Source of the DNA: Pseudomonas nicosulfuronedens
Lineage (GTDB): Bacteria; Pseudomonadota; Gammaproteobacteria; Pseudomonadales; Pseudomonadaceae
Direction of reading: 5' to 3'
DNA length: 64,000 nucleotides
Assembly: GCF_005877905.1 (NCBI RefSeq)
Contig: NZ_SWDV01000041.1
Coordinates: 1-64,000, forward strand
In this document: one piece after another, positions 11,319 to 48,460 of the stretch
Layout: each line of letters starts with the position of its first letter
How positions within the stretch are numbered: the stretch's first letter is position 1
Program-made: the position numbers and the translations under genes
Notes under the pieces: generated by a model
Told to the model about the DNA's origin: nothing
The model's database searches: none
What the model saw: the letters and a program-made list of their open reading frames with translations, nothing else

Positions 11319-11350
11319 ACACGCGCATTCAGTTATGCGAACGTCGTTCA
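11319..11350 (-). promoter_or_regulatory. Paired operator upstream of P450
   Basis: The 13-mer at 11338-11350 reads CGAACGTCGTTCA on the plus strand (12 of 13 match to TGAACG-N-CGTTCA). A second partial site at 11319-11331 keeps the arm CATTCA. The centres are 19 bp apart, as at the six other loci. It is positioned to control the P450/GMC/hydrolase/esterase operon. Confidence 0.65.
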
Positions 11351-11421
11351 ATTTAAAACAGGGGCAACGACTTGGCAAGATGCGCTTTGCCAGGCCATCG
11401 CTCCCCAGGTGACAAGTGCAC

Positions 11422-12198
11422 TCAGCTGATCAGGAAGCCCCCGTCCACCGCTAGCAACTGGCCAGTGATGTAGCGGGCTGCCGGGCTGGCGAGGAACAGC
11501 GCGGCGTTAGCGATATCCTCCACCCCGCCCATGCCGCCCAAAGGCACCCGCCCCGGACTGAGGATCGGTCCCTTGAGTTCGATCGCCGCCGAGGCCGCAC
11601 GCGCACCCGGTGTAGGAATGCCTCCCGGCAGAACGGCGTTCACCCGAATGCCGTCGCCGCCGAACTCCAGCGCCGTGGTTCGCGTCAAGCTGTTAACTCC
11701 CGCCTTGCTGGCGTTGTAGGTAGCATTGTGGTGAACCACGGCCTGCATCGAGGAAACCGAGGAGATGTTGACGATGGCGCCGCCACCGCGCTCCTTCATG
11801 CGCAGGATGCATTCCCGCAGGCACAGGAAGGTGCCGCGCAGGTTCACCGCCTGCAGCCGATCCCAGAACTCAGTGTCCACCTCCAGAAACGGCCGCTTGG
11901 GAAAGATCGCAGCGTTGTTCACCAGTACATCGAGGCTGCCGTAGGCGGCGAGCGCTGCGTCAAACAGCGCCGCCACCTCGCCTTCATTGGACACGTCGAC
12001 CTTCACGGCCCTTGCCTGGCCGCCGCCGGCAACTATGGCCTCGGCGACAGCACGAGCCGCGTCCAGATCGATATCGGCGACCACCACCCGGGCACCGACG
12101 TCGGCGAAAGTCTCGGCGATGCAGCGTCCGATACCGGCGGCTGCGCCGGTCACCACGGCAGTCTTGTCATCGAGGCGAAAGGCGTTTTGCGTAGTCAT
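11422..12198 (-). CDS. SDR-family oxidoreductase
   Basis: 258-aa classical SDR, with TGAAAGIG near residue 18, NNAAIFP, catalytic Ser in 'NISSVSS', Y-N-A-S-K, and C-terminal 'GQLLAVDGGF'. The ATG at 12198 has AAGGAG upstream. The gene lies directly downstream of the CYP101-like P450 (25-bp gap), the same P450/alcohol-dehydrogenase pairing as in camphor clusters, so it may oxidise that P450's alcohol product. Confidence 0.88.
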   Translation of the reverse strand: MTTQNAFRLDDKTAVVTGAAAGIGRCIAETFADVGARVVVADIDLDAARAVAEAIVAGGGQARAVKVDVSNEGEVAALFDAALAAYGSLDVLVNNAAIFPKRPFLEVDTEFWDRLQAVNLRGTFLCLRECILRMKERGGGAIVNISSVSSMQAVVHHNATYNASKAGVNSLTRTTALEFGGDGIRVNAVLPGGIPTPGARAASAAIELKGPILSPGRVPLGGMGGVEDIANAALFLASPAARYITGQLLAVDGGFLIS

Positions 12199-12223
12199 TT
12201 CCAGCTCCTTGGCAGTGAAAGGT

Positions 12224-13423
12224 TCAGAGGTCCCAGACGAGCGGCAGGTGGTGCAGGCAGCCGTTGACGCCGCCACTCACGCCCACGCTAGCGCCCGGCT
12301 TGATGCGGAAGTCCGGGATGCGCTTGAGCCACTCCACCAGGAACACTTTCATTTCCACCCGCGCAAGGAAGGAGCCCGGGCAACGATGCGGACCATTGCC
12401 GAAGGTTGAATAGGTACGCGAGGTACGCTCGAAGTCGACCTCCAGGGGGCGCTCGAAGCAGCGCTCATCCAGGCCATGCAAGGTGGTCGGCAGGATGATC
12501 ATTTCGCCCTTCTTCATCGTCACGCCCTTGTAGACCAGGTCGTGGTCGACCACCCTCCCCTGGTTGACCACGGGGAAGCGTCGCAGGAACTCGTCGGCCG
12601 CGCGCGGCGCGAGCTCTGGATTTTCGATGAGCTTGCGGCGGTGCTCCGGATTGCGTGCCAGGAAATGCGCGACAAAGCCTAACGCCGAGGCCACGGTGTC
12701 CAGTCCACCGATCAGCACCAGCGAGCACAGCCCAATCAGTTCCTGGTCGGACAGCGCCGCGCCCTCGCGGACGATGCGGCTGATCAGGTCGTCACCAGGC
12801 TTGGCGCGCCGTTCGGCAATCACCTTGCCGACGTACTCGAAGATCTTGCCGATGGTCTCAACCTTCACCTCGTGACCGAACGGGCGGACCATCTTGTCTG
12901 CTAGCGACAGCAGGTAGCCACGGTCTTCGCTGGGGAGCTTGACCATGTTCATGAAGATGCCGATCGGCAGGTGCTGGGCGAACTCGCTGACGAACTCGCA
13001 CTCGCCCCTGGGCTGGATACCATCAAGGAGTTCCAAGGTCAGCTGGCGCGCCTGCTCCTCAAGGGACCCCACCGCCTGCGGCGTGAAGGCCGGCGCGATC
13101 AGAGAGCGGTAGGTGGTGTGCTGCGGCGGGTTGAAGTGGATCGGCGGCAGGCGGCCGTGTTCCTCTCGGGGCACAGTGCTCCACTCCGAGGAGAACTGCT
13201 CGTAGTCCTTGAAGATGTGGTAGATGTCCTCGCCACGGGTCGCCACCCAGTGCCCGCCGCGCCGCGGAGTCCAGAAGATGTCCGGCACTCCCTGGCGGTG
13301 TAGCGCGTGGAAAGCCAGGTGGTAATCGTCCTCCGCTCCCGGTGGGTTGTAGACGTCGAAATCGAAGACCAGTTCCGGCGGTACGTGCGCCGGAACGGGG
13401 GCTGCTGCAGTCGGGTCGGTCAT
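12224..13423 (-). CDS. Cytochrome P450, CYP101-like
   Basis: 399-aa P450 that resembles P450cam along its length: N-terminal 'VPPELVFDFDVYNPP', 'GGHWVATRGEDI', 'FSSEWSTVPRE', I-helix 'GGLDTVASALGF' keeping the Asp-Thr pair, haem loop 'FGNGPHRCPG' with Cys348, and the C-terminal 'LPLVWD'. CYP101 enzymes hydroxylate compact terpenoids using a putidaredoxin-type ferredoxin, and such a ferredoxin and its reductase are encoded divergently at 13740-15344. The ATG at 13423 is chosen for the P450cam-like N-terminus; an upstream extension in the same frame is not family-like. Substrate unknown. Confidence 0.92.
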   Translation of the reverse strand: MTDPTAAAPVPAHVPPELVFDFDVYNPPGAEDDYHLAFHALHRQGVPDIFWTPRRGGHWVATRGEDIYHIFKDYEQFSSEWSTVPREEHGRLPPIHFNPPQHTTYRSLIAPAFTPQAVGSLEEQARQLTLELLDGIQPRGECEFVSEFAQHLPIGIFMNMVKLPSEDRGYLLSLADKMVRPFGHEVKVETIGKIFEYVGKVIAERRAKPGDDLISRIVREGAALSDQELIGLCSLVLIGGLDTVASALGFVAHFLARNPEHRRKLIENPELAPRAADEFLRRFPVVNQGRVVDHDLVYKGVTMKKGEMIILPTTLHGLDERCFERPLEVDFERTSRTYSTFGNGPHRCPGSFLARVEMKVFLVEWLKRIPDFRIKPGASVGVSGGVNGCLHHLPLVWDL

Positions 13424-13430
13424 TGTTCTT
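13423..13430 (-). promoter_or_regulatory. AAnAAnAA element at CYP101-like start
   Basis: Minus strand AAGAACAATG runs into the start codon. Candidate Hfq/Crc site. Confidence 0.45.
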
Positions 13431-13542
13431 GTCTCTCGCTGGCAGTGGATCAAAGAGGCGTCCGGGGCGCGGCTACCCACCCCGCTGGTGACGGCACCCG
13501 TCCAATCTATGCAAGCTGAGTGCATGGATAAACGCGCATGAG

Positions 13543-13559
13543 TTGAAGGAATCCTTCAA
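13543..13559. promoter_or_regulatory. 17-bp perfect palindrome upstream of CYP101-like gene
   Basis: TTGAAGGA-A-TCCTTCAA, 8+1+8 with no mismatch, lies 120 bp upstream of the P450 start and 80 bp upstream of the divergent promoter. The sequence differs from the TGAACG-N-CGTTCA operator, so a separate regulator is implied. The rest of the 317-bp intergenic region holds that operator pair and nothing else I recognise. Confidence 0.6.
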
Positions 13560-13647
13560 GAAAATTGAATAATCCCCCCACCGACCGGCTTTCCCTTCCC
13601 GCGCTTTCCTTCCGGCTTCTTCAGCACCCCTTCGCGCCATCGAGCAT

Positions 13648-13692
13648 TTGACAGTTCGCGCGCACAGCGTTCAGAATTCCTAACGACGTTCC
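13648..13692 (+). promoter_or_regulatory. Promoter with paired operator for ferredoxin reductase operon
   Basis: TTGACA (13648-13653), an 18-base spacer and CAGAAT (13672-13677) form the promoter. Operator 1 (13661-13673) has an intact right arm CGTTCA and overlaps the last part of the spacer. Operator 2 (13680-13692, CTAACGACGTTCC) begins eight bases after the first base of the -10. The centres are 19 bp apart. The layout is identical to the ETF promoter near 47 kb, and binding there should block transcription. Confidence 0.7.
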
Positions 13693-13739: not shown

Positions 13740-14996
13740 ATGACCGAAACTGCTTCGCTCACTGCCATCATCGTTGGTGCCGGCCACGCCGCCGGCGAAC
13801 TGGCGACCAGTCTGCGTGACAACGGCTGGGAGGGCCGTATCCTGCTCATCGGTGAGGAGCCGCAGCTCCCCTACCATCGGCCGCCCCTGTCGAAAGCCTA
13901 CCTCTCTGGCGCCGCCACCTCGGAAAGCTTGCTGATCAAGCCCCGCGCTACCTATGAAAAGGCCAACGTGGAAATCATCAGCGGCGTGCGCGTCGACAGG
14001 ATCGACCGCGAAACCGCCACGGTTCACCTGGCCGACGGCCGCACCGCACAGTACGACCGCCTCATCCTTGCGACCGGCGGGCGACCGCGCCCGCTGCCGA
14101 TCCCGCAGATCGAGCAGGCCGAGCGCTCGGGCAATTTCCACTACCTGAGAACGCTGCAGGACGTGGACCGCATCCGCCGCCAGTTCGAGCCGGGCATGCG
14201 CCTGGTCATCGTCGGCGGCGGCTACATTGGCCTCGAAGTGGCCGCAGTGGCGATCAAGCGCGGCCTCAAGGTCACCGTTCTGGAAGCATTGCCGCGGGTA
14301 CTGGCGCGCGTGACCGCGCCGGAGCTTTCGGCGTTCTATGAGTCGCGCCATCGCGCCGCTGGCGTCGAGATCCGCACTGACACTCAGGTCCGCGACGTGC
14401 AGCTGGACCCTTCGGGCGACGCGGTCGCCGCCCTGCAGTGCGCCGACGGCAGCAGCGTACCGGCGGACCTGGTGGTGGTCGGCATCGGCCTGCTTCCCAA
14501 CGTGGAATTGGCGGTCGACGCGGGCCTGGAAGTCGACAACGGTATCCTAGTCGACGAGTTCGGCCAGACCAGCGACTCGAACATCTACGCCGCCGGCGAC
14601 TGTAGCAACCACCCCAACCCCCTGCTCGGCCGGCGCTTGCGCCTGGAGTCAGTGCCCAACGCCCTGGAGCAGGCGCGCAGCGTGGCAGCCTCGATCTGCG
14701 GCAAGCCCAAGGCCTACGCCTCCATCCCGTGGTTCTGGTCGGATCAGTACGAGCTCAAGCTGAAGATGGTCGGCCTGTCCCAGGGTTACGACCAACTGGT
14801 TATCCGCGGCACTCCGGAAAGCGACTCCTTCTCGGCCTTCTACCTGAAGGACGGCAGCATCTTGGCCGCCGATACCGTGAACCGCCCTCCGGAATTCATG
14901 CTCGCCAAGCGCTTTATCGCGGAGAAGGTCCGCGTGGACCCCGCGCGACTCGCGGATGACAGCCAACCCCTGAAAGACCTGTTGCCCAGCGCCTGA
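13740..14996 (+). CDS. FAD-dependent ferredoxin reductase (putidaredoxin reductase-like)
   Basis: 418-aa NAD(P)H-dependent flavoprotein that reduces the adjacent [2Fe-2S] ferredoxin. The first dinucleotide motif is 'IIVGAGHAAGELA' (residues 11-23), followed by the 'YHRPPLSKAYL' segment typical of this family, a second motif 'VIVGGGYIGLEVAA' for NAD(P)H, and the FAD motif 'NIYAAGDCSN'. Length matches putidaredoxin reductase (about 420 aa). Together with the ferredoxin at 15024 and the P450s it completes a class I P450 electron chain; it could also feed the Rieske oxygenase at 41295, which lacks a local reductase. Its promoter carries the paired operator. Confidence 0.92.
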   Translation: MTETASLTAIIVGAGHAAGELATSLRDNGWEGRILLIGEEPQLPYHRPPLSKAYLSGAATSESLLIKPRATYEKANVEIISGVRVDRIDRETATVHLADGRTAQYDRLILATGGRPRPLPIPQIEQAERSGNFHYLRTLQDVDRIRRQFEPGMRLVIVGGGYIGLEVAAVAIKRGLKVTVLEALPRVLARVTAPELSAFYESRHRAAGVEIRTDTQVRDVQLDPSGDAVAALQCADGSSVPADLVVVGIGLLPNVELAVDAGLEVDNGILVDEFGQTSDSNIYAAGDCSNHPNPLLGRRLRLESVPNALEQARSVAASICGKPKAYASIPWFWSDQYELKLKMVGLSQGYDQLVIRGTPESDSFSAFYLKDGSILAADTVNRPPEFMLAKRFIAEKVRVDPARLADDSQPLKDLLPSA

Positions 14997-15023
14997 TATC
15001 CCAACTCGCCAGGAATAGAAAAA

Positions 15024-15344
15024 ATGCCAACGATCATCTTCGTCCAGCAAGACGGTAGCGAACAGCGGGTGCACGCCGACGTCGGCCAGTCCGTCATGCA
15101 GGTGGCGGTCAACAACCAGGTGCCGGGCATCCTCGGCGACTGCGGCGGTAGCTGCAGCTGCGCGACCTGCCATGGCTACGTGGAAAAGGACTGGGCCGCG
15201 CACATGCCGGCCGCCGAGTCCTACGAGAACGACATGCTGACCTGCGCCATGGATGTCACCGATGCCAGCCGCCTGACCTGCCAGATCATCGTCACGCCCG
15301 AATTGGATGGCCTGGTAGTCCGGCTGCCGGCCTTGCAGACCTGA
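15024..15344 (+). CDS. [2Fe-2S] ferredoxin, putidaredoxin-like
   Basis: 106-aa vertebrate-type/putidaredoxin-like ferredoxin. Cluster ligands C40, C46, C49 and C86 follow the CX5CX2C...C pattern ('GDCGGSCSCATCH'), and 'CQIIVTPELDGLVV' near the C-terminus is nearly that of putidaredoxin. It carries electrons from the upstream reductase (27-bp gap) to the P450s. Two further cysteines (C44, C74) are not expected ligands. The C-terminus ends '-LPALQT' and lacks the terminal Trp that putidaredoxin uses with its partners. Confidence 0.93.
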   Translation: MPTIIFVQQDGSEQRVHADVGQSVMQVAVNNQVPGILGDCGGSCSCATCHGYVEKDWAAHMPAAESYENDMLTCAMDVTDASRLTCQIIVTPELDGLVVRLPALQT

Positions 15345-19208: not shown

Positions 19209-20081
19209 TCAGCGCGCCGCGGGAGATGCGAGGAAACGCTCGCGGCTTCGGATGATTCGCTCATCGGCCATCAGGGCGTCATACAAGCGTCGGGCAGTGG
19301 CCAGCCCATCGTCGAAGCAAGGGCTAAGCACTGCGGCTTCGATGGCCTGGAAGGCGGCCTGCGCCACAACGTTGGGCTGGCGCAGCGCCAGCCACAGTTC
19401 GGCGTCGGTCAGAGCACATTCGGGGTCGGCTTCGCGCCAGGGATGATTGCGCACCAAGCGTTGCGCCAGGGCATCGGCCGCAGGCGGATCGGCGAGTATC
19501 TGGGTGGCCAGCCTCCTTGCCGCGTCCAGCCCGCAATCGACCGCCACGACCTGGTGGAACAGCGGTCCGCAGGCGTGATCCCGCGCCGTTTGCTGCGTTC
19601 CCTCCACCATCAGCCGCAGTGCCGGCAGGATGCCCAGAAGGCGTGGTAGGCGTTGCGTCGCCGATAGCGCGAGCGTGCCCAGGCTCACCTCCGGGAGAGC
19701 CAGACGAGTATCGGTTTCCGCTATCCGGTAGTGGCAGGCCAGCAGGGTTTCCAGGCCACCGCCCATGGCGAAGCCGTGGGCCAGGGCGATCACCGGCTTG
19801 CCCAGCTTCTCGATGGTCACGTGTATATGGCTCGACAGCCCAGGCTCAGCGGCGGCATCTGGCGTGCCGAACTCGCGGATATCCCCGCCAGCGCTGAAGC
19901 CGCGCCCGGCACCAGTCAATATCACAACCGCCACCAACGGATCGGCGCCGGCGCGCTGTAACGCACACAGCAACTCTCGACGCAAGGCCAAGCTAAAGGC
20001 GTTAACCGGAGGCGCCACCATGCGTAGCACGGCGACGCGCCCCTGTGCCTCGTGGGTGTATTCGACTTGAGCTTGGGTCAT
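19209..20081 (-). CDS. Enoyl-CoA hydratase/isomerase family protein
   Basis: 290-aa crotonase, with oxyanion-hole segments 'GAGRGFSAGGDIREFG' and 'ALAHGFAMGGGLETLLAC'. The Glu in 'GGGLE' and 'LPEVSLGTL' provide the acid/base positions of FadB-type hydratases. The start is set at ATG 20081 (M-T-Q-A-Q-V-E-Y); an in-frame extension to 20186 would run over the operator. It heads the minus-strand operon with the HTD2-like hydratase and CitE-like lyase, and its promoter carries a complete operator pair. Confidence 0.85.
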   Translation of the reverse strand: MTQAQVEYTHEAQGRVAVLRMVAPPVNAFSLALRRELLCALQRAGADPLVAVVILTGAGRGFSAGGDIREFGTPDAAAEPGLSSHIHVTIEKLGKPVIALAHGFAMGGGLETLLACHYRIAETDTRLALPEVSLGTLALSATQRLPRLLGILPALRLMVEGTQQTARDHACGPLFHQVVAVDCGLDAARRLATQILADPPAADALAQRLVRNHPWREADPECALTDAELWLALRQPNVVAQAAFQAIEAAVLSPCFDDGLATARRLYDALMADERIIRSRERFLASPAAR

Positions 20082-20172
20082 TGCGTATGCCTCAACTTGC
20101 AACGCCTCTCCAGGGGGACGAGTAGTGGACCGAGCAACGCGCCGATGCTCAGCGCGAGCGGTGTTCGACCCA

Positions 20173-20204
20173 TGAACGCTATTCATATTTCTGAATGGCG
20201 TTCA
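20173..20204 (-). promoter_or_regulatory. Paired operator between crotonase and lysR-type gene
   Basis: TGAACGCTATTCA (20173-20185) and TGAATGGCGTTCA (20192-20204), both near-complete inverted repeats, with centres 19 bp apart. On the minus strand a CAGAAA -10 (20188-20193) starts eight bases before the downstream copy, and TTTGCA lies 17 bases upstream of it. The geometry matches the ETF and ferredoxin-reductase promoters. Confidence 0.7.
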
Positions 20205-20344: not shown

Positions 20345-21298
20345 ATGGATAAGTTGCGCAGCATGGAAGTCTTCATGACCGTAGTCGATCGCGGCAGCCT
20401 CAGCGCCGCGGCGGCGGCACTGAGCCTCTCCCCGTCGATGGTCTCCACGCACCTGAGCAATCTCGAAACGGACCTGGGGGTGCGCCTGCTCAATCGCACC
20501 ACGCGGCGCCTGAGCCTCACCGACGAGGGTGCCGTCTACTACTCGCATTGCCAGCATGTGCACGAGGAGATCGCCAGCGTCGAGTCCATGCTCGCCGGCA
20601 ATCACATGCAGCCGCGTGGGCGCCTGCGCGTGGACATCCCGAGCACCATCGCGCAGTGCTTGATCGTCCCGCTGCTGCGGGAGTTCCGCCGCCGCTACCC
20701 GGACATCCAGCTCGACTTTTCCGACTCGGAGCAAATCTCGAACACGGTGGAGAGTCAGCACGACGTGATGATCCGCCTCGGCCCGCTGGGCGACTCGGGC
20801 ATGATTGCCCGCCAGTTGGGGCACACCCCCCTGCTCACCGTGGCGTCCCCCGGATACCTGGAATCACGGGGGACGCCGCAGTCTCCCGAGGAGCTGCGCC
20901 AGCACGATTGCATCAGCTATATGGTCGAGCGCACCGGGAGAATGCTGCCCTGGACCTTCGAGCGCCATGGTCAGCGCAAAATCCTGCAATTGCAGAGCAG
21001 CTTGTCGATCACCCAAGGCAACACGCGGGTCGAAGCCGCGCTGAATGGTCTGGGAATCATCCAGGGCATGGGCTTTCATCTGCACGGGCATCTGAGTACC
21101 GGCGCGCTGCGCCAGGTGTTGCCGGACTGGAGCGTCCTCGCGCCGGCCATCGAGGTGCTCTATCCGCGCGGACGCCGGGAATCGCGCAAAGTGCACACCT
21201 TCGTGGACTTCCTGCTAGAGCACTACCCGGCAGGACGGGAAATCCGCGTGCCGGCGCCCTCCCGTGGAGAGAGCGCCAAGAGCGGAGTGCTCGACTGA
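20345..21298 (+). CDS. LysR-family transcriptional regulator
   Basis: 317-aa LTTR with an N-terminal winged HTH ('MEVFMTVVDRGSLSAAAAAL', 'VSTHLSNLETDLGVRLLNR') and a C-terminal periplasmic-binding-like effector domain. It resembles the large AaeR/DsdC-like subgroup with 'TRRLSLTDEG'. It is divergent from the crotonase/HTD2/CitE operon with 264 bp between them, so it is a candidate activator of that operon. The paired operator in this gap does not have the usual T-N11-A LysR box. The effector is unknown. Confidence 0.9.
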   Translation: MDKLRSMEVFMTVVDRGSLSAAAAALSLSPSMVSTHLSNLETDLGVRLLNRTTRRLSLTDEGAVYYSHCQHVHEEIASVESMLAGNHMQPRGRLRVDIPSTIAQCLIVPLLREFRRRYPDIQLDFSDSEQISNTVESQHDVMIRLGPLGDSGMIARQLGHTPLLTVASPGYLESRGTPQSPEELRQHDCISYMVERTGRMLPWTFERHGQRKILQLQSSLSITQGNTRVEAALNGLGIIQGMGFHLHGHLSTGALRQVLPDWSVLAPAIEVLYPRGRRESRKVHTFVDFLLEHYPAGREIRVPAPSRGESAKSGVLD

Positions 21299-25117: not shown

Positions 25118-26290
25118 TCAGGTGAGGACTTTCAGGGAGTCGTTGGAGAACGGTTCGAAGGTCTCACCGAGGCGCGCCTTGCGGGTCCAGTCGGGGTCGT
25201 GCAGCAACGACCGGCCAACCCCCACCAGGTCGAATTCGCCACGCTGGAAGCGCTCCATAAGCAGGTCCAGGTTGTCGCTGGCGTTGGAGCCTCCCTGCTT
25301 GTTGCTGTCGTACATACCGTTACTCAGGCCGACGCCGCCGACAGTCATCGTTAGCCGGCCGGTGATCTTGCGCGCCCAGCCGGCGAGGTTCAGTTGCCCG
25401 TCGGCGCCCGGCAGGTCGGCGAATTCCGCGCGGTTGAAATAGCGCACGCTGGCGTCAAAGATGTCCACGCCGGCCTCAGCGATGGGTAGCAGGATTTCCT
25501 CAAGCTCGCCGGGCGTCCGGGCCAGCTTGGCCTTGAAGTCCTGCTGCTTCCATTGCGAGAAGCGGAAGAGGATCGGCATGTCCGGGCCCACCGAGCGGCG
25601 GATGGCACGCACCACCTCGGCTGCAAAGCGGCTCCGCTCGCGGCGCCCGCCGCCCCAGGCATCGGTACGGCGATTGGTCACGTCCCAGAGAAAGGTGTCG
25701 ATCAGGTAGCCGTGGGCTCCGTGTATGGCTATCCCATCGAAGCCGCACAGGTGAGCGTGGACGGCGCTACGCGCATAAGCGTCGATGACGTCCTGAATTT
25801 CGCTGTCAGCCATCGGCGCAGTTGGCAGCAACTGCTGCTGCACGTATTCCGCAGTGGACGAGGTGAGCCCATCGGCGGGCCCCCAGAGTCCGGAGGGACG
25901 CATGGAGGCCGCACCGGGGTTTGGCCCGGTGCCAACCACACGCATTACTCCCTGGTGCCACAGCTGCGGAAAGATCAGCCCGCCGGCCGCGTGCACCTGC
26001 TCGACAACATGCCGCCAGCCGGCCAGCGCCCGCTCTCCATGCAGCTGCGGCAGATCGCTCTCGCCGATACCCGCCTCCCCCAGGGCTGCGGGGTGATCGA
26101 TACCCACACCTTCCGTGATGATCAGCCCGGTCTCGCCGTAGGCGCGGCGACGGTAGTAGCCGGCGACGTCATCCCCGGGCACACCACCGGGGCAGAAATT
26201 GCGGGTCATGGGCGCCATGACGATGCGGTTCCTGAGTACCGCAGAACCGATCCGCAGGGGTTCGAACAGGGGCGCTAGCGTTGCATTCAT
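25118..26290 (-). CDS. NADH:flavin oxidoreductase, Old Yellow Enzyme family
   Basis: 390-aa FMN-dependent TIM-barrel enoate/enone reductase. Typical segments are 'LRNRIVMAPMTRNF' near residue 20, 'TEGVGIDHP', 'FPQLWHQGVMR' and 'DGIAIHGAHGYLIDTFL' with the substrate-binding His, then 'TDAWGG'. It probably reduces an activated C=C bond of a cyclic intermediate. The ATG at 26290 overlaps the stop of the SnoaL-like gene (ATGA), so translation is coupled. Confidence 0.88.
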   Translation of the reverse strand: MNATLAPLFEPLRIGSAVLRNRIVMAPMTRNFCPGGVPGDDVAGYYRRRAYGETGLIITEGVGIDHPAALGEAGIGESDLPQLHGERALAGWRHVVEQVHAAGGLIFPQLWHQGVMRVVGTGPNPGAASMRPSGLWGPADGLTSSTAEYVQQQLLPTAPMADSEIQDVIDAYARSAVHAHLCGFDGIAIHGAHGYLIDTFLWDVTNRRTDAWGGGRRERSRFAAEVVRAIRRSVGPDMPILFRFSQWKQQDFKAKLARTPGELEEILLPIAEAGVDIFDASVRYFNRAEFADLPGADGQLNLAGWARKITGRLTMTVGGVGLSNGMYDSNKQGGSNASDNLDLLMERFQRGEFDLVGVGRSLLHDPDWTRKARLGETFEPFSNDSLKVLT

Positions 26291-26886
26291 TTCGAGGGTT
26301 CCTTCGGCTCGCAGGGCTGGCGGCTGACGCTTGCGCGTTGCTGCGGTGAGGTGCGCGACCAGAATCCCTGCCAGGTCGGGAAGCTGGCCGGCAGGCGCGG
26401 TTGGAAGCGCTCGCCGGTGTACTTGCCGGGCCAGTTCTGCCAGTGCGGCGCGCCGGGACGTTGCAGCCAGTCGGTGGAATACCAGTGGCGCTCGTCGCGA
26501 CGGGCGAAGTACCACTGACCGTCACGGCGCTCGTAGTGGTCGAAGTAACAGATGGCCATCACCACCCAGTGGTCGCCGTCCTCGTGCTCGGCACGGCAGT
26601 AAACGGTGCCGGTGGCGTGGTCGGCGTCTTGGAAGTCGAGGGTCTGCCCGCAGATCTGGTGTACGCAGCGATAGAACGCCTGCAACACTGGTTCGGAGGC
26701 GTAGTACACCTGCAGGGCTTCGCGCCCGCTCCCCCAGCGACCACAATCAACATCCTCGACGAACAGCGCGGTGAGGCCTTCGAGGTCGCGGGAATCCACG
26801 GCCAGTGCGTAACGCGCCGGCAACTGGCCAATGGCAAGCTGTGCCTCAACCCGTTCCATCCGCGCCAATAGTGCCTGGTCGCTCAT
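26287..26886 (-). CDS. SnoaL/NTF2-like protein
   Basis: 199-aa alpha+beta-barrel protein of the nuclear transport factor 2 superfamily: 'ARYALAVDSRDLEGLTALFVEDVD' near residue 25 and 'WVVMAICYFDHYERRDGQWYF' near residue 110. The superfamily includes ketosteroid isomerase-like, dehydratase and hydratase proteins; no catalytic function can be assigned. It overlaps by four bases the SDR upstream and the OYE gene downstream, so all three are tightly coupled. About 50 C-terminal residues beyond the fold are low in recognisable structure. Confidence 0.75.
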   Translation of the reverse strand: MSDQALLARMERVEAQLAIGQLPARYALAVDSRDLEGLTALFVEDVDCGRWGSGREALQVYYASEPVLQAFYRCVHQICGQTLDFQDADHATGTVYCRAEHEDGDHWVVMAICYFDHYERRDGQWYFARRDERHWYSTDWLQRPGAPHWQNWPGKYTGERFQPRLPASFPTWQGFWSRTSPQQRASVSRQPCEPKEPSK

Positions 26887-27704
26887 GCTCCCATCTCCTT
26901 CCCCGCCTGGCGGAAGCGCATTTCATCTGCGTAATAGGGCTGATGGGAAAGCAACCCGCCATCGACGTTGATGATCTGCCCGGTGATGAACGCTGCCTCG
27001 TCGCTGGCCAGGAAAAGCACCGCGTTGGCGATGTCGTCGACGTTGCCCAGGCGCGGCGTCAGGTGATGTGCAAGCATCATCTCGCCAGCCGGTCCGGCGT
27101 AGTTGTCGGCGGTCGCCGGGGTCACGATTAGGCCCGGCGCCAGCGCATTGCAGCGAATGCCCTGCTTTCCGTGCTGAGCGGCGACATAGCGCGTGAGGTT
27201 CTCGATGCCGGCCTTAGACACCGCATAGGCGCTGTAACCCAGCGCGCCAGCCTGGGCCGAGCCGGAGCTGGTGTTGATGATCGAGCCACCACCGCGGGGC
27301 AGCATCGCTGCGAGCGCGTACTTGCTCGCCAACATGGTGCCGCGCAGGTTGATGCGCAGGGTGTCGTCCCAGACCTGGGTGTCCATGTCCGCGACAGGCG
27401 CATCGAGCCGCGACGAGATATGCGTTGCAGCCGCATTATTGAACAGCACGTCGAGGCCCGCGAACAAAGAGACCGTCTGCTCCACCAGCACGCGGATCGA
27501 CGCCTCGTCTCCCAGGTCGACCGCCAATGCGGCGGCTTGCAGCCCTGCCCCGCGCAACGCAGCTGCCTGCTCCTGGGCGGCGCTGAGATTGATGTCTGCG
27601 AGCACCACCCGGGCGCCCTCTTCTGCGAGCCGCCTGGCCGCGGCGAGGCCGATACCGGAGGCCGCGCCGGTTACGATGGCGACCTTGTCTTGTAGACGTT
27701 TCAT
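26883..27704 (-). CDS. SDR-family oxidoreductase
   Basis: 273-aa SDR with TGAASGIG near residue 12, 'LFNNAAATH', 'NTSSGSAQAG', catalytic Y-A-V-S-K and 'GQIINVDGGLL'. It has about 25 extra residues after the usual SDR end. AGGAAG precedes the ATG. It lies in the run SDR/SDR/SDR/SnoaL/OYE, probably carrying out ring alcohol/ketone chemistry on the same substrate series. Confidence 0.86.
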   Translation of the reverse strand: MKRLQDKVAIVTGAASGIGLAAARRLAEEGARVVLADINLSAAQEQAAALRGAGLQAAALAVDLGDEASIRVLVEQTVSLFAGLDVLFNNAAATHISSRLDAPVADMDTQVWDDTLRINLRGTMLASKYALAAMLPRGGGSIINTSSGSAQAGALGYSAYAVSKAGIENLTRYVAAQHGKQGIRCNALAPGLIVTPATADNYAGPAGEMMLAHHLTPRLGNVDDIANAVLFLASDEAAFITGQIINVDGGLLSHQPYYADEMRFRQAGKEMGA

Positions 27705-27716
27705 GGCACTTCTTCC

Positions 27717-29269: not shown

Positions 29270-29315
29270 GAAGCAACATTCATTTATACAAACATCGTTC
29301 ATAATAATGTGTCAA
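29270..29315 (-). promoter_or_regulatory. Promoter with paired operator for SDR/SnoaL/OYE operon
   Basis: On the minus strand TTGACA (29310-29315) is followed after eight bases by operator 1 (29289-29301, TGAACGATGTTTG) and 19 bp on by a weaker copy (29270-29282, TGAATGTTGCTTC). A TGTATA hexamer begins eight bases before the second copy with a 19-base spacer, one longer than at the other promoters. Confidence 0.62.
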
Positions 29316-30470: not shown

Positions 30471-30522
30471 GTTCTCCCTCCTTGTGGAATGCCCGTCCCA
30501 GGCGGCCACGGGCTAGACTCGG

Positions 30523-39588: not shown

Positions 39589-41295
39589 TTACCAGATCTT
39601 GTGGTGCCCGGCCGAATGCTGGGCGGCGATGTAACCGAAGATGAAGGAGGCGGCGATGCTGGTGCCTGCCCCCGGGTAGCAGCGCCCGGTGACGCCGGCG
39701 GTAGCGTTGCCGGTGGCGTACAGGCCGGGGATGCAGCTACCGTCTTCGCGCAGGACCCGGGCGTATTCGTCGGTGACCAGGCCACCGGCGGTGCCCACAT
39801 CACCGGGATACATGCGCACGGCGTAGAACGGGCCTTCCTCGATGCTGCCGAGGTTGGGGTTCGGGCTTACAGTGGGGTCGCCATGACAGCGGTCGAAGGC
39901 GCGGGAGCCGCGACCGAAGTCCTGATCCACGCCGCTGGTGCAGAAACCGTTGAAGCGCTCCACCGTGTCGAGCAGGCCGGCACGGTCGATACCGCACATG
40001 CTCGCCAGCTGCTCCAGGGAGTCGGCCTTAATCATGTAGCCGCTTTCCAGCCACTGCTTGGGCACTTGCCCGGGCATTGCGGTGCCCCAGGGGTAGTACT
40101 TGCGCTGGCGGCTGTCCATCACCACCCAGCTGGGCACCGCTTTGCCGGTTTCCGCCTGGCGCCGGTACATGCGCTGGCCAATCTCCATATAGGAGCCGGC
40201 CTCATCGCAGAAGCGCTGGCCATCCTGGTCGACCATGATCGAGTACGGCAGCGATAGATCGAGGTGGTGCATGAACGGCAATGGCTCGCCCTTCGCGGTG
40301 CGGGCACCCTCGGGCAGGGTCTCGTTGGGCCCCAGAGAGGTGACCACCCACCACGCCTCGTCCATGCAATCCACGGCGGCGCCCAGTGCCATTGCGGCCT
40401 GGATAACCTCGCCGGTATCGCCTGGGTTTGCGTTGGTCCATTGCGCGGACGACGGTTGTGGCTGGTAGCGCTTGCGCATCTCAGCGTTGCGCGAGAAACC
40501 GCCGGTATTGATCAGAACGCCGTCCAGCGCCTGAACCCGTACCTGCCGCCCGTTATGCCGCACGACAACGCCGCTCACTCGACCGTCTTCGACCACCAGC
40601 TCCTCGACCGGCGTCGAGGTCCAGATCGGAAGCTTCTCGCGCAAGGCGATCTGCAACATACGCCCCTGGATCGCCGCACCACCGCCGAGAATCTCCTTGC
40701 CGCTGAGCTTCTGCCGAAGCATGCGAATGCCCAGTTGCATCGCCTTCAGCTTGCCGGCCCAGGTACGTTTCATCAGGAACAACGTGGGAAACTCGTTGGA
40801 GTTGGCCGGGATGGCCGGGCCCTGGTAGCGCGACAGACGTCCCGCCCACTCCCCCAGTTCGCGCACGTTGAACAGTTTCGCCACCAGCGACCGGCCGCGC
40901 GGTTGGCCACCAGGCCGGTCGTCGTAATAGTCGGCCCAACCGTCGGCGTACTCGAAGGCCATGCCCGCGCGTTCGAGGAAATCCACCATCAGCGGGCCAG
41001 TGCGCAGGAACGCTTCGCGGCGCTGCGGGTTCGTGGACGGCCCCTCGTAGGTCACGGTGCTCTGCAGGTACTGCTGGGCCTTCTCGTAGGAGTCATCAAC
41101 GCCATGGCGCTTCATCACCGGGTTGTTGGGCACCCACCAGACGCCGCCGGAATAGCCGGTGGAACCACCGACTTTGTCGAGTTTCTCGACGATCAGGGCG
41201 CGCTTGCCCAACTCCTTGGCCTTGAGCGCGGCACACATGGAGCCGCCGCCACTACCGACGATCACCAGGTCGAAGCTTTCGTCCCATTGACTCAT
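39589..41295 (-). CDS. KstD-like FAD-dependent dehydrogenase
   Basis: 568-aa flavoprotein of the 3-ketosteroid-delta1-dehydrogenase/fumarate-reductase family. The N-terminal FAD motif is 'VIVGSGGGSMCAALKAKELG' and the C-terminal signature 'LYATGNATAGVTGRCYPGAG' contains the Tyr and Gly that KstD uses for catalysis and keto binding. The 'GGSTGYSGG' segment near residue 45 is also typical. It probably introduces a C=C bond beside a ring ketone. The ATG at 41295 shares a base with the Rieske stop (TGATG), so the two enzymes are translationally coupled. Confidence 0.88.
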   Translation of the reverse strand: MSQWDESFDLVIVGSGGGSMCAALKAKELGKRALIVEKLDKVGGSTGYSGGVWWVPNNPVMKRHGVDDSYEKAQQYLQSTVTYEGPSTNPQRREAFLRTGPLMVDFLERAGMAFEYADGWADYYDDRPGGQPRGRSLVAKLFNVRELGEWAGRLSRYQGPAIPANSNEFPTLFLMKRTWAGKLKAMQLGIRMLRQKLSGKEILGGGAAIQGRMLQIALREKLPIWTSTPVEELVVEDGRVSGVVVRHNGRQVRVQALDGVLINTGGFSRNAEMRKRYQPQPSSAQWTNANPGDTGEVIQAAMALGAAVDCMDEAWWVVTSLGPNETLPEGARTAKGEPLPFMHHLDLSLPYSIMVDQDGQRFCDEAGSYMEIGQRMYRRQAETGKAVPSWVVMDSRQRKYYPWGTAMPGQVPKQWLESGYMIKADSLEQLASMCGIDRAGLLDTVERFNGFCTSGVDQDFGRGSRAFDRCHGDPTVSPNPNLGSIEEGPFYAVRMYPGDVGTAGGLVTDEYARVLREDGSCIPGLYATGNATAGVTGRCYPGAGTSIAASFIFGYIAAQHSAGHHKIW

Positions 41296-42653
41296 CACTT
41301 GGACTCCGCGCCGTAGAGGTATTCGTTGAGCTCACGGTGGAAGTTGGAGATCGCCGACTCCTGCAGCGGGCTTGTCCTGGCGCCTGCGAAGCCGCGGGAC
41401 TTCATGCCCTGCTGCACCTGCCCCATGTTATTGAAGTCCTGGCTGAGGATCAGGCCGAAGTTCTCCACGGTGTTGGTCTTCCAGTCGTCGACCCCGTGGT
41501 AGAACTCGCGGTTGAGCTTCGGCTCCTGGCCCGGCGCGTAACGCTTCAGCGACCAGATGTCATAGATGCAAGAATCGGGGTTGTCGCCATCCGGGCGCGC
41601 GCGATAGAACAGCGCGCCGTCCGGGTAGAGCAGGAACACCAGGTTAGGGAACACGTGCCAGTCGGTGCCGGCGCGACCCATCTGCTCAAACGAGATGTCC
41701 GGCCAGCCGGCACCTTCCTTGATGGCGGCCTCGCGCTGGAACTCCATGGCCTTGCTCAGCACCAGGAATTGGTCCTGGGTCGGCTCGACCTCGGTCAGCA
41801 GGCGCTTGGTGGCCTCGTTGTCTCGGTCGGTGAAGATCGCTTTGAGCTGGTCTTCCATGATCTGGTAGAACTTCACGAGCCCCGGGCGGATGTCGTCCGG
41901 AATCGGCTTGCCGGTGCGCGGCGACGGTGTGCCGGGCAGGCGAGTAGCGGTGGGATAGCCGAACATGCCGTGCTTGCCGAAGGCGAAGCTGCGGGTGACG
42001 TCGTCACCCTGGGTATCGAGGATCTGCGGGTGGGTCGCTGCGACGTGGTAACCCTCGTTGAAGGCTTCCAGGGCGACTTTCCAATTGCACGGCAGGCGCA
42101 CCGACTTGTACCAGCGGTAGCGCATCTTCTCGAACTCGAAGCAGTCGGTGATTTCCGGCACCGGGGCGAGGTACTGGGCCAGTGGCTCAGCCTTGGGATC
42201 CATGTTGATGAAGACGAAACCGCCCCAGGTGTCCACCAGCACTTCCTTGAGCGCCAGCTCTTCGCGGCTCATGTTCGGGCAGCCGGCCCAGTCGTCCTCG
42301 TCGAGTACCCGCAGCACGCTGCCGTCGAGGTTCCACTGCCAGCCGTGGTAGTTGCAATGGAACTTGGTGGCATGGCCACAGCCGCTGGTGAGGCGCCGCC
42401 CACGGTGCTGGCAGACGTTGTAGTAGGCCTTGATCCGATCGCCGGTCAGGCGGGTGATGATGATCGACTCGTCGATCACGTCGAAGGTCACGTAATCTCC
42501 GACGTTGGGAATCTCCTCGAGGCGGCAGGCAACTTGCCAGACCTTCGGCCACATCCGCTCCTTTTCGAGTTGCACATAGTCCTTGGAAATGTAGCCATCG
42601 CGCGGAACGAAATCCGGCCGTACAGCTTGCGGTGCCGATTCTCGAGCAGTCAT
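41295..42653 (-). CDS. Rieske non-haem iron oxygenase, alpha subunit
   Basis: 452-aa ring-hydroxylating-type oxygenase. Rieske ligands C81/H83 and C100/H103 ('CQHRGR', 'FHCNYHGW'); mononuclear iron His203 and His208 in 'FNEGYHVAATHPQ'. Glu200 occupies the place of the bridging Asp of naphthalene dioxygenase, as in the alpha-only choline/carnitine monooxygenase group, and no beta-subunit gene is present. No dedicated reductase or ferredoxin is adjacent; the pair at 13740-15344 could serve. The ATG at 42653 has GGAGG upstream. It is the first gene of the 29.4-42.7 kb unit. Confidence 0.9.
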   Translation of the reverse strand: MTARESAPQAVRPDFVPRDGYISKDYVQLEKERMWPKVWQVACRLEEIPNVGDYVTFDVIDESIIITRLTGDRIKAYYNVCQHRGRRLTSGCGHATKFHCNYHGWQWNLDGSVLRVLDEDDWAGCPNMSREELALKEVLVDTWGGFVFINMDPKAEPLAQYLAPVPEITDCFEFEKMRYRWYKSVRLPCNWKVALEAFNEGYHVAATHPQILDTQGDDVTRSFAFGKHGMFGYPTATRLPGTPSPRTGKPIPDDIRPGLVKFYQIMEDQLKAIFTDRDNEATKRLLTEVEPTQDQFLVLSKAMEFQREAAIKEGAGWPDISFEQMGRAGTDWHVFPNLVFLLYPDGALFYRARPDGDNPDSCIYDIWSLKRYAPGQEPKLNREFYHGVDDWKTNTVENFGLILSQDFNNMGQVQQGMKSRGFAGARTSPLQESAISNFHRELNEYLYGAESK

Positions 42654-42697
42654 CTGGAACCTCCTGCATCGGCAGCCCACGGGGCTTGCCTACTGCC

Positions 42698-42743: not shown

Positions 42744-42788
42744 TGAACGACGTTCAAGACTATAAACGCGCGTCGGTTCTACTGTCAA
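42744..42788 (-). promoter_or_regulatory. Promoter with operator heading the Rieske operon
   Basis: On the minus strand TTGACA (42783-42788), 18 bases, TATAGT (42759-42764). The perfect 13-bp palindrome TGAACGTCGTTCA (42744-42756) begins eight bases after the first base of the -10 and covers the expected transcription start. A partial second copy (42763-42775, arm CGTTTA in transcript direction) is centred 19 bp upstream. Repressor control is strongly suggested. Confidence 0.75.
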
Positions 42789-45318: not shown

Positions 45319-46248
45319 TCAGCCGAGGCTTCCGCTCATCTGCGGCACCGCCTCGAAGAGGTCGGCAACTAGGCCATAGTCGGCAACCTGGAAGATTGGT
45401 GCCTCCGGGTCCTTGTTGATCGCCACTATCACTTTGGAATCCTTCATCCCAGCCAGATGCTGGATGGCCCCGGAAATCCCGACGGCGAGGTACAGCTCCG
45501 GCGCGACAATCTTGCCGGTCTGGCCTACCTGGTAATCGTTAGGCATGAAACCGGCGTCAACCGCCGCGCGGGAGGCGCCCACCGCGCCACCGAGCTTGTC
45601 GGCCAGACCTTCGAGCAGCACGAAGTTTTCGCCGCTGCCCATACCGCGCCCGCCGGAAACCACCACCCGCGCAGAGGTCAGCTCAGGGCGGGACGAGTGC
45701 GTCACTTCCTGGCCGACAAAGCGCACTGCGGGATTGCCCTCCACCGCCGCGATGACCTCAACGGCAGCGCTGCCGCCATCTGCAGCGGCGTCGAAACCGG
45801 TGGTGCGCACGGTGACCACCTTGATCGGATCCGGACTCTGGACGGTCGCAAGCGCATTGCCGGCATAGATCGGGCGAACAAAGGTGTCGCTCGACTCCAC
45901 CGACACCACGTCGGACACTTGCGCACTATCCAGCAGCGCGGCCACACGTGGCATGAAGCTTTTACCGGAGGCGCTGGCGGCGGCCACCACATGGCTGTAC
46001 TGCCCGGCTATAGCCAGTACCTGCGACGCGAGGTTTTCCGCCGAAGCGTGTGCGTGGGCCGGCGCATCCGCCAGTAGCACCTTGCTCACGCCGAGCAACC
46101 GGGCGCCCTGTTCTGCCGCCGCAGCGCAATCGCTGCCAGCCACCAGCAGATGGACTTCCGCACCCATCTGCAGCGCAGCGGTCAATGCGTGGCGGGTCGC
46201 CGCCTTCAGCGATGCATTGTCGTGTTCGGCAATTACCAGTACAGCCAT
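45319..46248 (-). CDS. etfA: Electron transfer flavoprotein alpha subunit
   Basis: 309-aa ETF alpha: N-terminal '[20 protein letters not shown]' and the FAD-binding C-terminal half with '[14 protein letters not shown]', '[20 protein letters not shown]', '[20 protein letters not shown]' and '[13 protein letters not shown]'. With ETF beta it accepts electrons from the several acyl-CoA dehydrogenases here and passes them to ETF:quinone oxidoreductase, which is not encoded in the window. The 1-bp gap to etfB indicates cotranscription. Confidence 0.95.
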
Positions 46249-46249
46249 C

Positions 46250-46999
46250 TCAGATCACCTTCGCTTCGTTACGCAGTTTGTCCACCAGAGCCGCGACATC
46301 GGCCACCATCACACCACCGCTACGCTTGGGCGGCTCGACTACCTTGAGCGTCTTCAGGCGCGGCGCCAGGTCGACGCCCAACTCACCAGCGGTGAGGACA
46401 TCCAGGGGTTTCTTCTTGGCCTTCATGATGTTCGGCAGCGAGGCATAGCGCGGCGTGTTCAAGCGCAGATCGGTGGTCACCACAGCCGGCAGCGCCAGAT
46501 CCAGAGTTTCGAGGCCTCCATCGATCTCGCGGGTGACCTTCACCCGCCCACCGGAGACGTCCACCTGGGAGGCGAACGTGGCCTGCGGCCAGTCCAGCAG
46601 GGCGGCGACCATCTGCCCGGTCTGGCAGGCGTCGTCGTCAATGGCCTGCTTACCGAGAATCAGCAAGTCCGGCTGTTCGCGCTTGCACAGGGCGGCCAGC
46701 GCCTTGGCCACAGCCAGCGGCTGAACCTCGCCCTCGTCTTGCAGCAGGACGGCTCGATCGCCGCCCAGCGCCAGCGCCGTGCGCAGCACCTCTTGGGCGG
46801 CTGCGGGGCCGATGGAGACAACCACCACCTCGCTTGCAATTCCCCCTTCCTTCAGGCGTACTGCTTCCTCGACGGCGATCTCGTCGAAGGGGTTCATCGA
46901 CATCTTCAGGTTGGTCAGGTCGATGCCGCTGCCGTCCGGCTTGACCCGCGGCTTGGCGTTGTAGTCGATGACCCGTTTGACAGCGACGAGGACTTTCAT
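46250..46999 (-). CDS. etfB: Electron transfer flavoprotein beta subunit
   Basis: 249-aa ETF beta: '[20 protein letters not shown]', '[17 protein letters not shown]', AMP-binding '[19 protein letters not shown]'. Standard length. The ATG at 46999 has GTGGAG upstream. It is first in the unit etfB/etfA/SDR/ligase, transcribed from the best-formed paired-operator promoter in the window, so this ETF appears dedicated to the pathway rather than housekeeping. Confidence 0.95.
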
Positions 47000-47017
47000 T
47001 GCAACTCCACGATTATC

Positions 47018-47062
47018 TGAATGTCGTTCATAATTCTGAACTTCGTTCAGATAACTTGTCAA
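47018..47062 (-). promoter_or_regulatory. Promoter with complete operator pair for etfBA
   Basis: On the minus strand TTGACA (47057-47062), 18 bases, CAGAAT (47033-47038). The operators read TGAACGAAGTTCA (47037-47049) and TGAACGACATTCA (47018-47030) with centres 19 bp apart; each is a near-perfect inverted repeat. One covers the spacer, the other the start point. Confidence 0.78.
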
Positions 47063-47119
47063 CTGCCTGGACGCAGTGCCTCGTCGGCCACCACGCCCGA
47101 GCGAACCGGTGAGATGCGT

Positions 47120-48328
47120 TCAGTCCAGGCTCTCGCGACCCACGCCCCGCTCCTCTTGCCATTCGATTAGTGTGGGCGCAGCCATGTCTCCATCCATGCG
47201 ATGTACTACCTCGAAGTAGTCCTGCTTGAGCGGGTCCTGCATGATCTCCGCCCGCGGCTTTACCTTAAACACATACAGAGTCTGCAGATTCTGGTGATCG
47301 AAGGCGCGCCACTGCTGCTCGCCCTTGAGCAGCCGATAGACATGCCCTTCCAGCGCGGCTATCAGCTTGGCGGGGTCTGCGCTGGAACTACGTCGGGCAG
47401 CGTCGGCCCACTGCTGAAGGCTGGCATAGGTCGAGGCCGCCGCGCTCGACGGGTAGGCCTGGTAACGCTGTACAAAGGCGTCAATGAAGGCTTGGCCTGC
47501 CTGGCTACCTTCTAGGCGCGGGACCTGCGGGGCCCAGGTGTCGGCGCCAATAACTCCCTCCATGAGCCCGGGGCCGGCCTGTTCGACGATGTCCTGATTG
47601 AGATAGGGGACGACTACCTGCATGCGCTGACGCAACCCCAGCTTGTCCACCAGGGGCATGGCCTGGACCAGGTCGTCGCCGTAGAGCATCAGCACCAGAA
47701 CCTTGGCGTCGCTGCTGGCGGCCTGCTTGAGCGCCGCGCGATAGCTCTGGCCGGAGGCCCGATCGGCCATGGACGCCGCCTCCAGAAAGGCGCCGATATC
47801 GGCGTCGGCGTAGGTGTAGCCCGCAGTAACGTAGAAGAACTTCTGGTTGGGGAATTGCTGGTCCAGGTATTCGATCAGCGCTCTGCCCGCCATGCGCGCG
47901 CTGCATCCCTCCTGGAACAGGTTGCGCCTTCCCGAGCGCCCGGTGATGTCCGCGGAAGCGGCCTGGGGAACCAAATAGAGCATGCCGCGTCGGGCGGCAC
48001 TTTCGCCGATGGCCAGCACCTCCTCACTGGAAACCCCGCCAATCACTGTCCGCACATTGGCAGCGGCAAGCGCGTCGACCGCTCGCATGGCCTTATCTTT
48101 GCGCCCGCCGGTGTCCAGCGGACGCATCTGCACATTCTTGCCAAGGATGCCGCCCTGGGCATTGATCTCGTCGACAGCCAACAGCGCGGCACGCATCTGC
48201 GCCAGGCCCTGTTGCTTGAAGTTTCCCGTCCTGGGGTAGATGAGGCCAACCTCAAGGGCCTCTTCCGCCGGGGCTCGTGTACACAGACAGCAAACCGACA
48301 GCAGGACAACGGTAACGAATCTTCGCAT
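47120..48328 (-). CDS. ABC-type branched-chain amino acid-like substrate-binding protein (type I periplasmic)
   Basis: 402-aa periplasmic binding protein with an N-terminal signal peptide (M-R-R-F-V-T-V-V-L-L-S then a Cys-rich h-region, probable cleavage after A-P-A near residue 21). The LivK-like core has 'VGLIYPRTGNFKQQG', 'AVDEINAQGGILGKNVQMR' and 'VIGGVSSEEVLAIG'. No permease or ATPase gene is nearby, so it is orphan: either it works with a distant transporter or it is a sensor. It has its own upstream operator pair, which ties it to the catabolic genes. The ATG at 48328 is used; a GTG precedes it. Confidence 0.85.
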   Translation of the reverse strand: MRRFVTVVLLSVCCLCTRAPAEEALEVGLIYPRTGNFKQQGLAQMRAALLAVDEINAQGGILGKNVQMRPLDTGGRKDKAMRAVDALAAANVRTVIGGVSSEEVLAIGESAARRGMLYLVPQAASADITGRSGRRNLFQEGCSARMAGRALIEYLDQQFPNQKFFYVTAGYTYADADIGAFLEAASMADRASGQSYRAALKQAASSDAKVLVLMLYGDDLVQAMPLVDKLGLRQRMQVVVPYLNQDIVEQAGPGLMEGVIGADTWAPQVPRLEGSQAGQAFIDAFVQRYQAYPSSAAASTYASLQQWADAARRSSSADPAKLIAALEGHVYRLLKGEQQWRAFDHQNLQTLYVFKVKPRAEIMQDPLKQDYFEVVHRMDGDMAAPTLIEWQEERGVGRESLD

Positions 48329-48340
48329 CACCCATACCTT

Positions 48341-48351
48341 TTCTTGTTGTT
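48341..48351 (-). promoter_or_regulatory. AAnAAnAA elements upstream of binding-protein gene
   Basis: Minus strand AACAACAAGAAAAGG, two overlapping matches just upstream of the ribosome-binding site. Candidate Hfq/Crc site. Confidence 0.5.
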
Positions 48352-48428
48352 GTCAGGGTGCCCGGCCCGAATAGCGGCTTCGGCGTGCAGTGCAACCGTC
48401 CGTCGCGCCAAGCTGGCGGCCAAGATAG

Positions 48429-48460
48429 TTGATGCTATTTATATTTGTAAACGTCGTTCA
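48429..48460 (-). promoter_or_regulatory. Paired operator upstream of binding-protein gene
   Basis: TAAACGTCGTTCA (48448-48460, plus strand; 12 of 13 match) and a weak second copy TTGATGCTATTTA (48429-48441), centres 19 bp apart. An AT-rich TATAAA lies between them on the minus strand. Confidence 0.6.

Follow-up and report, generated by a model that had tools for sequence, protein, structure and literature searches.

The first 64 kb of contig NZ_SWDV01000041.1 from Pseudomonas nicosulfuronedens (hereafter the window; the contig is referred to as C41) raises the question of why several catabolic promoters share the 13-bp inverted repeat TGAACG-N-CGTTCA, and which protein reads it. We consider it fairly likely that the repeat is the operator of one regulon, which would extend over a catabolic island formed by C41 and a second island contig of the same genome (C48), and that it is bound by a repressor of the TetR/AcrR family. 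The most likely candidate is the TetR protein encoded at C48:27878-28588, outside the window, which we refer to as TetR48.

The sequence-only reading had placed the repeat at seven promoter regions in the window, and every one of the listed sites was found. They are given here without strand; where a strand is named, it is that of the promoter box.

11338..11350: operator with a half-site partner at 11319-11331, ahead of the cytochrome P450 operon
13661..13692: two weak copies 19 bp apart, before the ferredoxin reductase gene; TTGACA 32 bp upstream, + strand
20173..20204: double operator before the crotonase operon, inside the intergenic gap shared with the divergent lysR gene
29270..29301: half-site and operator before the short-chain dehydrogenase/reductase (SDR) and old-yellow-enzyme operon; TTGACA 14 bp ahead of the strong site, - strand
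42744..42775: perfect operator and half-site before the Rieske/KstD operon; TTGACA-N18-TATAGT, - strand
47018..47049: double operator before the electron-transfer flavoprotein (ETF) genes; TTGACA-N18-CAGAAT, - strand
48429..48460: half-site and operator before the gene for a periplasmic binding protein

Among these sites, only the copy at 42744-42756 matched the repeat perfectly, while 1 mismatch was found at 11338, 20192, 47018, 47037, and 48448, 2 mismatches at 20173, and 3 mismatches at 13680 and 29289. The position-weight matrix to which the scores below refer was built from the nine strong window copies only.

The strong copies were concentrated on the two island contigs. C41 and C48 together represent 126.8 of 6677 kb, or 1.9% of the source genome (6.68 Mb), and they contained 15 of the 27 places in the genome with at most 1 mismatch to the repeat (binomial P ~ 2e-19), including all 3 of its perfect copies. 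One of these 15 strong places, at 11630, was located well within a gene. Allowing up to 3 mismatches, the paired pattern TGAAN5TTCA-N6-TGAAN5TTCA was found at 8 places in the genome as compared with 1 for the reversed control, and 6 of the 8 were on C41 or C48, so the paired motif was not equally dense elsewhere in the genome.

Beyond the window, double sites were identified on C41 at 65642/65661 and 65884/65903 and on C48 at 16340/16359, and another 12 loci on C48 had extragenic matches with scores of at least 12, some of which may represent chance matches. Strong sites were also present on contigs C72 and C88. The copy at C72:7933-7945 (in locus L010) was located upstream of a second DUF1302 gene, which may be a distant member of the regulon. 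The open reading frames tested near the strong site on C88 corresponded to one VWA/CobT-like gene and two genes without a Pfam family.

To follow the repeat outside the source genome, we used related clusters, to which a search with the Rieske protein had led on plasmids of a betaproteobacterium, Paraburkholderia sprentiae WSM5005 (75%), and an alphaproteobacterium, Azospirillum sp. B510 (55%). The Paraburkholderia cluster was covered by 2 stretches of 100 kb in total (L024 and L025) and the Azospirillum cluster by 2 stretches, L026 and the 30-kb stretch L031. For 71 of the 115 predicted genes on C41 and C48, at least one of these clusters contained a reciprocal best match, and for 23 genes (counted by eye) both clusters did. 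C41 and C48 are probably parts of one island, since their genes interleave in the Paraburkholderia cluster. The Rieske gene itself (E <= 1e-80) was present in 1 of 25 members of the genus and in 1 of 398 members of the phylum, which was the source genome both times.

With the window matrix, which was not trained on either of these species, 15 intergenic matches with scores of at least 12 were found in 33.9 kb of intergenic cluster DNA, as compared with 1 in 22.2 kb from three stretches of these plasmids that served as controls (P = 0.004). All 15 matches were in L024, L025, and L026, and 2 of them represent two copies of one promoter; L031 contained no intergenic match, and without it the figure is 15 in 25.4 kb. 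Matches in coding sequence numbered 8 in the clusters and 9 in the controls, and the difference between intergenic and coding matches inside the clusters was highly significant (P ~ 1e-6). Furthermore, the sites recurred at the promoters of the same genes. The Rieske promoters share a site at 42744 in the window, L025:12516, and L026:22530, the ETF promoters at 47018/47037, L025:14279, and L026:47987, and the ferredoxin reductase promoters at 13661/13680, L024:46542/46561, and L026:47987. Shared sites were also found between the source genome and Paraburkholderia at the promoters of the DUF1302 gene (C48:16340 and L025:23427), an acyl-CoA dehydrogenase gene (C41:65884/65903 and L025:40416), and a P450 gene (C48:52336 and L024:37961).

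We infer that TetR48 is the reader of the repeat from a comparison of the regulators encoded in these clusters. The source genome contained 40 TetR_N matches, one of which was in the window (TetR41) and one on C48 (TetR48). The N-terminal helix-turn-helix domain of TetR48 matched PF00440 with 53.8 bits against a cut-off of 24, and the true start of the gene is probably at 27953. Of the 23 genes that both clusters share with the island, TetR48 was the sole one seen to encode a transcription factor, and its counterparts obtained the best match in each of the whole plasmids (106.6 versus 33.4 bits and 97.9 versus 51). They were located inside the clusters, with the Azospirillum counterpart adjoining the Rieske gene. 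In the source genome, TetR48 was flanked by sites at C48:27936 and 28617, the former of which scored 13.9 and was located four bases before the probable ATG codon of TetR48. The proposal of a single regulon is thus borne out by the enrichment in the source genome and by the conserved sites at orthologous promoters in two other bacteria, and the proposal of a probable TetR-type repressor gains support from operators on core promoters (see below) and from a TetR gene common to the three clusters that carry the motif, while the binding of the repeat by TetR48 is predicted.

Two observations were made in the surroundings of TetR48. A wider palindrome, TGAACG-N4-CGTTCG, with a spacer of 4 instead of 1, is located at C48:27879-27894 (L007:7879-7894), about 60 bp upstream of the probable start of TetR48. 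The strong site at C48:28617 is upstream of a gene for a methyl-accepting chemotaxis protein (C48:28828-30528) beside TetR48 and may couple chemotaxis to the regulon.

The sequence-only reading had also held that a second full or partial copy is centred 19 bp away at every locus. Around the 74 matches with scores of at least 9, 19 bp was the best of all offsets from 1 to 60 bp, and it was also the best among offsets 3 to 60 when the intergenic matches were taken alone. A partner with a score of at least 0 was found at 19 bp at 6 of the 7 window loci, where other offsets from 14 to 60 bp gave at most 1; this figure is partly circular, since the window sites themselves had supplied the matrix. 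At the other loci of the source genome, which are outside the view of that reading, the corresponding numbers were 8 of 15 loci at 19 bp and 3 at the best other offset. In the other two species full pairs were rare, yet the 19-bp offset had the highest mean.

At most loci, the partner proved to be less than a full copy. Two copies with at most 4 mismatches each were found at 7 of 36 loci, whereas there was no second good copy at the remaining 29, and the partners at 11319, 29270, 42763, and 48429 carry 5 to 6 mismatches. At the 29 loci with a single strong copy, the inner half of the partner (GTTCA) had on average 3.24 matching bases of 5, as compared with 1.73 +- 0.19 at other offsets, while the outer half was at background (1.14 versus 1.21). 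At 11 of the 29 loci the inner half had 4 or 5 matches, as compared with 3 at most for every other offset between 14 and 45. The mean was similar in the source genome (3.25, 16 loci) and in the other two species (3.23, 13 loci), where other offsets gave 1.73 +- 0.29, with 2.38 as the highest value. The common form of the operator is therefore GTTCA-N6-TGAACGnCGTTCA. The operator is unusual in that full tandems occur at several loci in the source genome, and a palindrome with a half-site in all three bacteria. Hence, the 19-bp register stood, and the claim of a second copy at every locus is to be narrowed to an inner half-site at 29 of 36 loci.

The operators were located on core promoters. At 13 of 35 loci, as compared with 1.4 expected, a TTGACA-like box (5 or 6 of 6 bases) started 32 to 30 bp ahead of the strong site; this block was picked after inspection, and P ~ 2e-7 remains after allowing for 38 blocks. 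A comparison with the gene tables indicated that all 13 boxes were on the strand that reads toward the adjacent gene. In this register, the partner falls between the -35 and -10 boxes and the strong site covers -10/+1. Some further loci differ, 29289 among them, in that the strong site itself follows closely on the -35 box, and several loci contained no such -35 box. Just beyond the window, the segment C41:65604-65930 contains two divergent promoters, each with its own double operator (65642-65673 and 65884-65915; L005:5643-5674 and 5885-5916) in mirrored orientation. The position of the operators on the core promoters therefore suggests the layout of a repressor.

Two alternatives concern the sites themselves. 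Near-matches to a short repeat may arise by chance in a GC-rich genome, and the excess of loose matches was in fact mild: 36 matches with up to 3 mismatches in the window versus 24.6 +- 5.2 in shuffled sequences, and 315 matches with up to 2 mismatches in the whole genome versus 261 for the reversed control. Loose matches alone carry little information; the strong ones are informative, and chance is exceedingly improbable as an explanation, being contradicted already by the concentration of strong matches and pairs on the island and by their recurrence at orthologous promoters. The other alternative is that the partner at loci with a single strong site merely represents the bases of the -10 promoter element, in which case one dimer per promoter would suffice. 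We hold this to be possible but rather unlikely. It would account for the background level of the outer half at the 29 loci, and where the -35 box sets the register, two bases of the inner half fall within the -10 hexamer, but the GTT of the inner half, which is upstream of the hexamer, is conserved too, and the 7 loci with two copies are left unexplained by a -10 box.

The remaining alternatives concern the protein that reads the sites, and the two other regulator genes in the window are as follows.

20345..21298, + strand: LysR-type regulator
5610..6386, - strand: TetR41, the TetR gene located in the window itself, at the end of the gene run behind the P450 gene

LysR boxes have the form T-N11-A, to which the repeat conforms, and LysR-type regulators bind as pairs a recognition site and an activation site, which one strong and one degenerate copy resemble. 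A tetramer of the regulator encoded at 20345-21298 could thus occupy both copies. Its gene and the crotonase operon are divergently oriented on either side of the double site, and the best match of the protein, among the 10 listed from 3546 plasmid records, was in the Azospirillum cluster (270 bits; the next in that record had 223). However, a search of the 100-kb plasmid stretch of the Paraburkholderia cluster, which did not extend to the chromosome, gave no LysR gene, despite the presence of the motif, and the best LysR protein of that plasmid was 38% identical and encoded about 66 kb before the cluster stretch. Other LysR genes of the plasmid, with 26% to 33% identity, were located about 10 kb behind the stretch, so that a distant LysR member of the cluster is just conceivable. 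Moreover, the gap next to the Azospirillum lysR gene contained no site with a score of at least 7, and the sites are located downstream of the -35 box rather than upstream, as for the usual activator. We regard the LysR-type regulator as an improbable reader, and only marginally better chances are given to the HTH_3-MarR fusion protein encoded at C48:38938-39678, or yet another regulator, with TetR48 having separate targets. A related MarR gene was found in the Paraburkholderia cluster (39%), a strong site at C48:39690 is located just behind the gene for the fusion protein, and TetR48 could serve the neighbouring chemoreceptor gene instead; against this, the fusion protein had no match in the Azospirillum stretches L026 and L031, one of which bears the motif. 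TetR41 was also considered, and none of the four cluster loci contained a match to it. All three proteins are ranked below TetR48.

Across 56 genomes (the source and relatives), the co-occurrence of the paired pattern, with the CG core ignored, is uninformative: the pattern was matched in 25 of them, with 6 matches versus 1 in the control for the source genome, and several genomes of the same order exceeded their control as well, up to 4 versus 0. Several results weigh against a regulon controlled by TetR48. Partners with a score of at least 0 were found at 19 bp at 3 of 14 loci in the other two species, and the best other offset also gave 3. The whole P. sprentiae plasmid (974 kb) contained 8 places with at most 1 mismatch versus 4 for the reversed control, with 4 of the 8 inside the 100-kb cluster stretch and one perfect copy (346799) far outside the cluster, and the Azospirillum plasmid contained 1 such place, in the cluster, versus 2 for the control. 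TetR48 was only 36% and 35% identical to its counterparts, as compared with 43% to 82% for the other 22 genes common to the three clusters, and the recognition helices (STIYAHF, TTVYRQF, and LTIYRRF) differed at residues that are likely to contact bases. No strong site was present directly upstream of the counterpart TetR genes, the best scores being 10.9, within the preceding gene, and 3.7. Finally, relatives of TetR48 were found at 8 loci in genome contigs, none with more than 52% identity in the best segment, and in the three of these that were scanned for the motif, all from Xanthomonas (L016 to L018), no motif with a score of at least 13 was found in the surrounding 15 to 20 kb.

Among the other 55 genomes, the best match to TetR48 had 33% identity over 152 residues. 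In one genome of the same genus (G007:C1), this best foreign match was found with equal scores at two positions (3450368 and 3793089) separated by about 343 kb, which suggests a large duplication.

If TetR48 reads the repeat, a dimer would bind the strong 13-bp palindrome over -10/+1, and a second dimer would bind beside the first where a palindrome or an inner half-site stands between the -35 and -10 boxes at a distance of 19 bp. The bound dimers would together block RNA polymerase until an intermediate of the pathway releases the repressor. The island was probably acquired horizontally. A bolder idea, which we put forward tentatively as rather unlikely, is that the one-and-a-half operator in its fixed -35/-10 register has been kept between distant Proteobacteria while the TetR repressor diverged to about 35% identity, so that operator and promoter would form one transferable module for an isoprenoid-degradation island. 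If true, an island for an undescribed pathway could move between bacterial classes, its control kept by the transferable module.

Elements of such a system are known from other TetR proteins; the regulon is new, the type of system is not. QacR binds as two dimers that overlap on a single palindrome, which may be likened to the two dimers on one operator region proposed here, with the difference that here two palindromes stand 19 bp apart. The C-terminal domain of TetR48 matched Pfam TetR_C_7 (AefR-like), and a profile of the three TetR sequences matched the structure of AefR (PDB 3cdl) at 6e-19, with five other solved sequences scoring higher. AefR has roles in efflux or quorum control, whereas the neighbours of TetR48 are catabolic genes and a chemoreceptor gene. 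KstR and KstR2 resemble the predicted repressor as TetR repressors of large steroid catabolic regulons, but their pathway genes are actinobacterial, and neither is known to have a fixed tandem. The KstR operator has the form TnnAACnnGTTnnA, and this form had no exact match in the window.

Both of these mycobacterial proteins, KstR and KstR2, are named as regulators of steroid catabolism (PMC8700777, PMC4810484). From the available portion of PMC8700777, the closest published parallel found is EdcR of Caenibius tardaugens, a TetR-type repressor of an oestrogen catabolic cluster with an operator, TnnCnnTACnAnTnGTAnnGnnA, that overlaps the -10 box. EdcR is likewise a steroid-catabolic TetR repressor with a palindromic operator over the -10 box, and its operator is kept in another species that bears the cluster; it differs in regulating two operons rather than up to 22 loci, and the same portion of that paper mentions no 19-bp tandem. 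The EdcR operator had no match with up to 2 mismatches in the window. A literature search, which was not exhaustive, found no published account of the present operator or of a regulator of the cluster. The analysis provides this rare catabolic island with an operator, its register relative to the promoter, and a candidate repressor, TetR48. Since up to 22 loci on two contigs are tied together by the regulon, it predicts sets of genes that act in concert; with a steroid-like or terpenoid intermediate as its ligand, such a repressor might also serve as a biosensor part.

The genes that follow the operators in the window are listed below.

9997..11328, - strand: cytochrome P450 (PF00067), first gene behind the 11338 operator
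13740..15344, + strand: ferredoxin reductase and 2Fe-2S ferredoxin
19209..20186, - strand: crotonase, first gene behind the 20173/20192 operator
25118..29212, - strand: genes for three SDR enzymes, a SnoaL-like protein, and an old yellow enzyme, following the 29289 operator
39589..42680, - strand: genes for the KstD-like dehydrogenase and the Rieske oxygenase, which come first after the 42744 operator
45319..47062, - strand: ETF alpha and beta genes
47120..48331, - strand: periplasmic ligand-binding protein (PF13458)

The annotated starts of the P450 and crotonase genes are probably too far upstream, and the true start of the ETF beta gene is probably downstream of the operator. The P450 protein was 74% identical to its reciprocal best match in P. 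sprentiae.

A substrate that is steroid-like, or another polycyclic isoprenoid, is suggested by the encoded enzymes. The KstD-like dehydrogenase scored above the cut-off of its NCBIfam model, and its closest solved structures were 3-ketosteroid dehydrogenases, while the closest PDB entries of the Rieske oxygenase were other oxygenases than the 9-hydroxylase. The island further contains genes for three P450s and their redox partners, subunits of an E1-type ketoacid dehydrogenase, a CoA ligase, ETF, an acyl-CoA dehydrogenase, and a DUF1302 protein, and, by the annotation of their counterparts, for additional acyl-CoA dehydrogenases, a thiolase, and an MMPL transporter. No gene in L024 and L025 was annotated as a meta-cleavage dioxygenase, one short VOC-family gene being present, and no search for this enzyme was made in the source genome; the canonical 9,10-seco route is therefore only a candidate pathway.

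A few genes provide further hints about the substrate. The Paraburkholderia counterparts of the genes at C48:18618-24342 (L006/L007) were annotated as CysN, CysD, a VOC-family protein, a DUF1214 protein, and a sulfotransferase, so the substrate or an intermediate is perhaps sulfated. A kinase-like gene at 29391-30509 in the window matched both APH and EcKL, and a second kinase-like gene, at C48:6758-7825, had as its reciprocal best match a gene with an ecdysteroid 22-kinase family annotation, which may hint at an ecdysteroid-like substrate.

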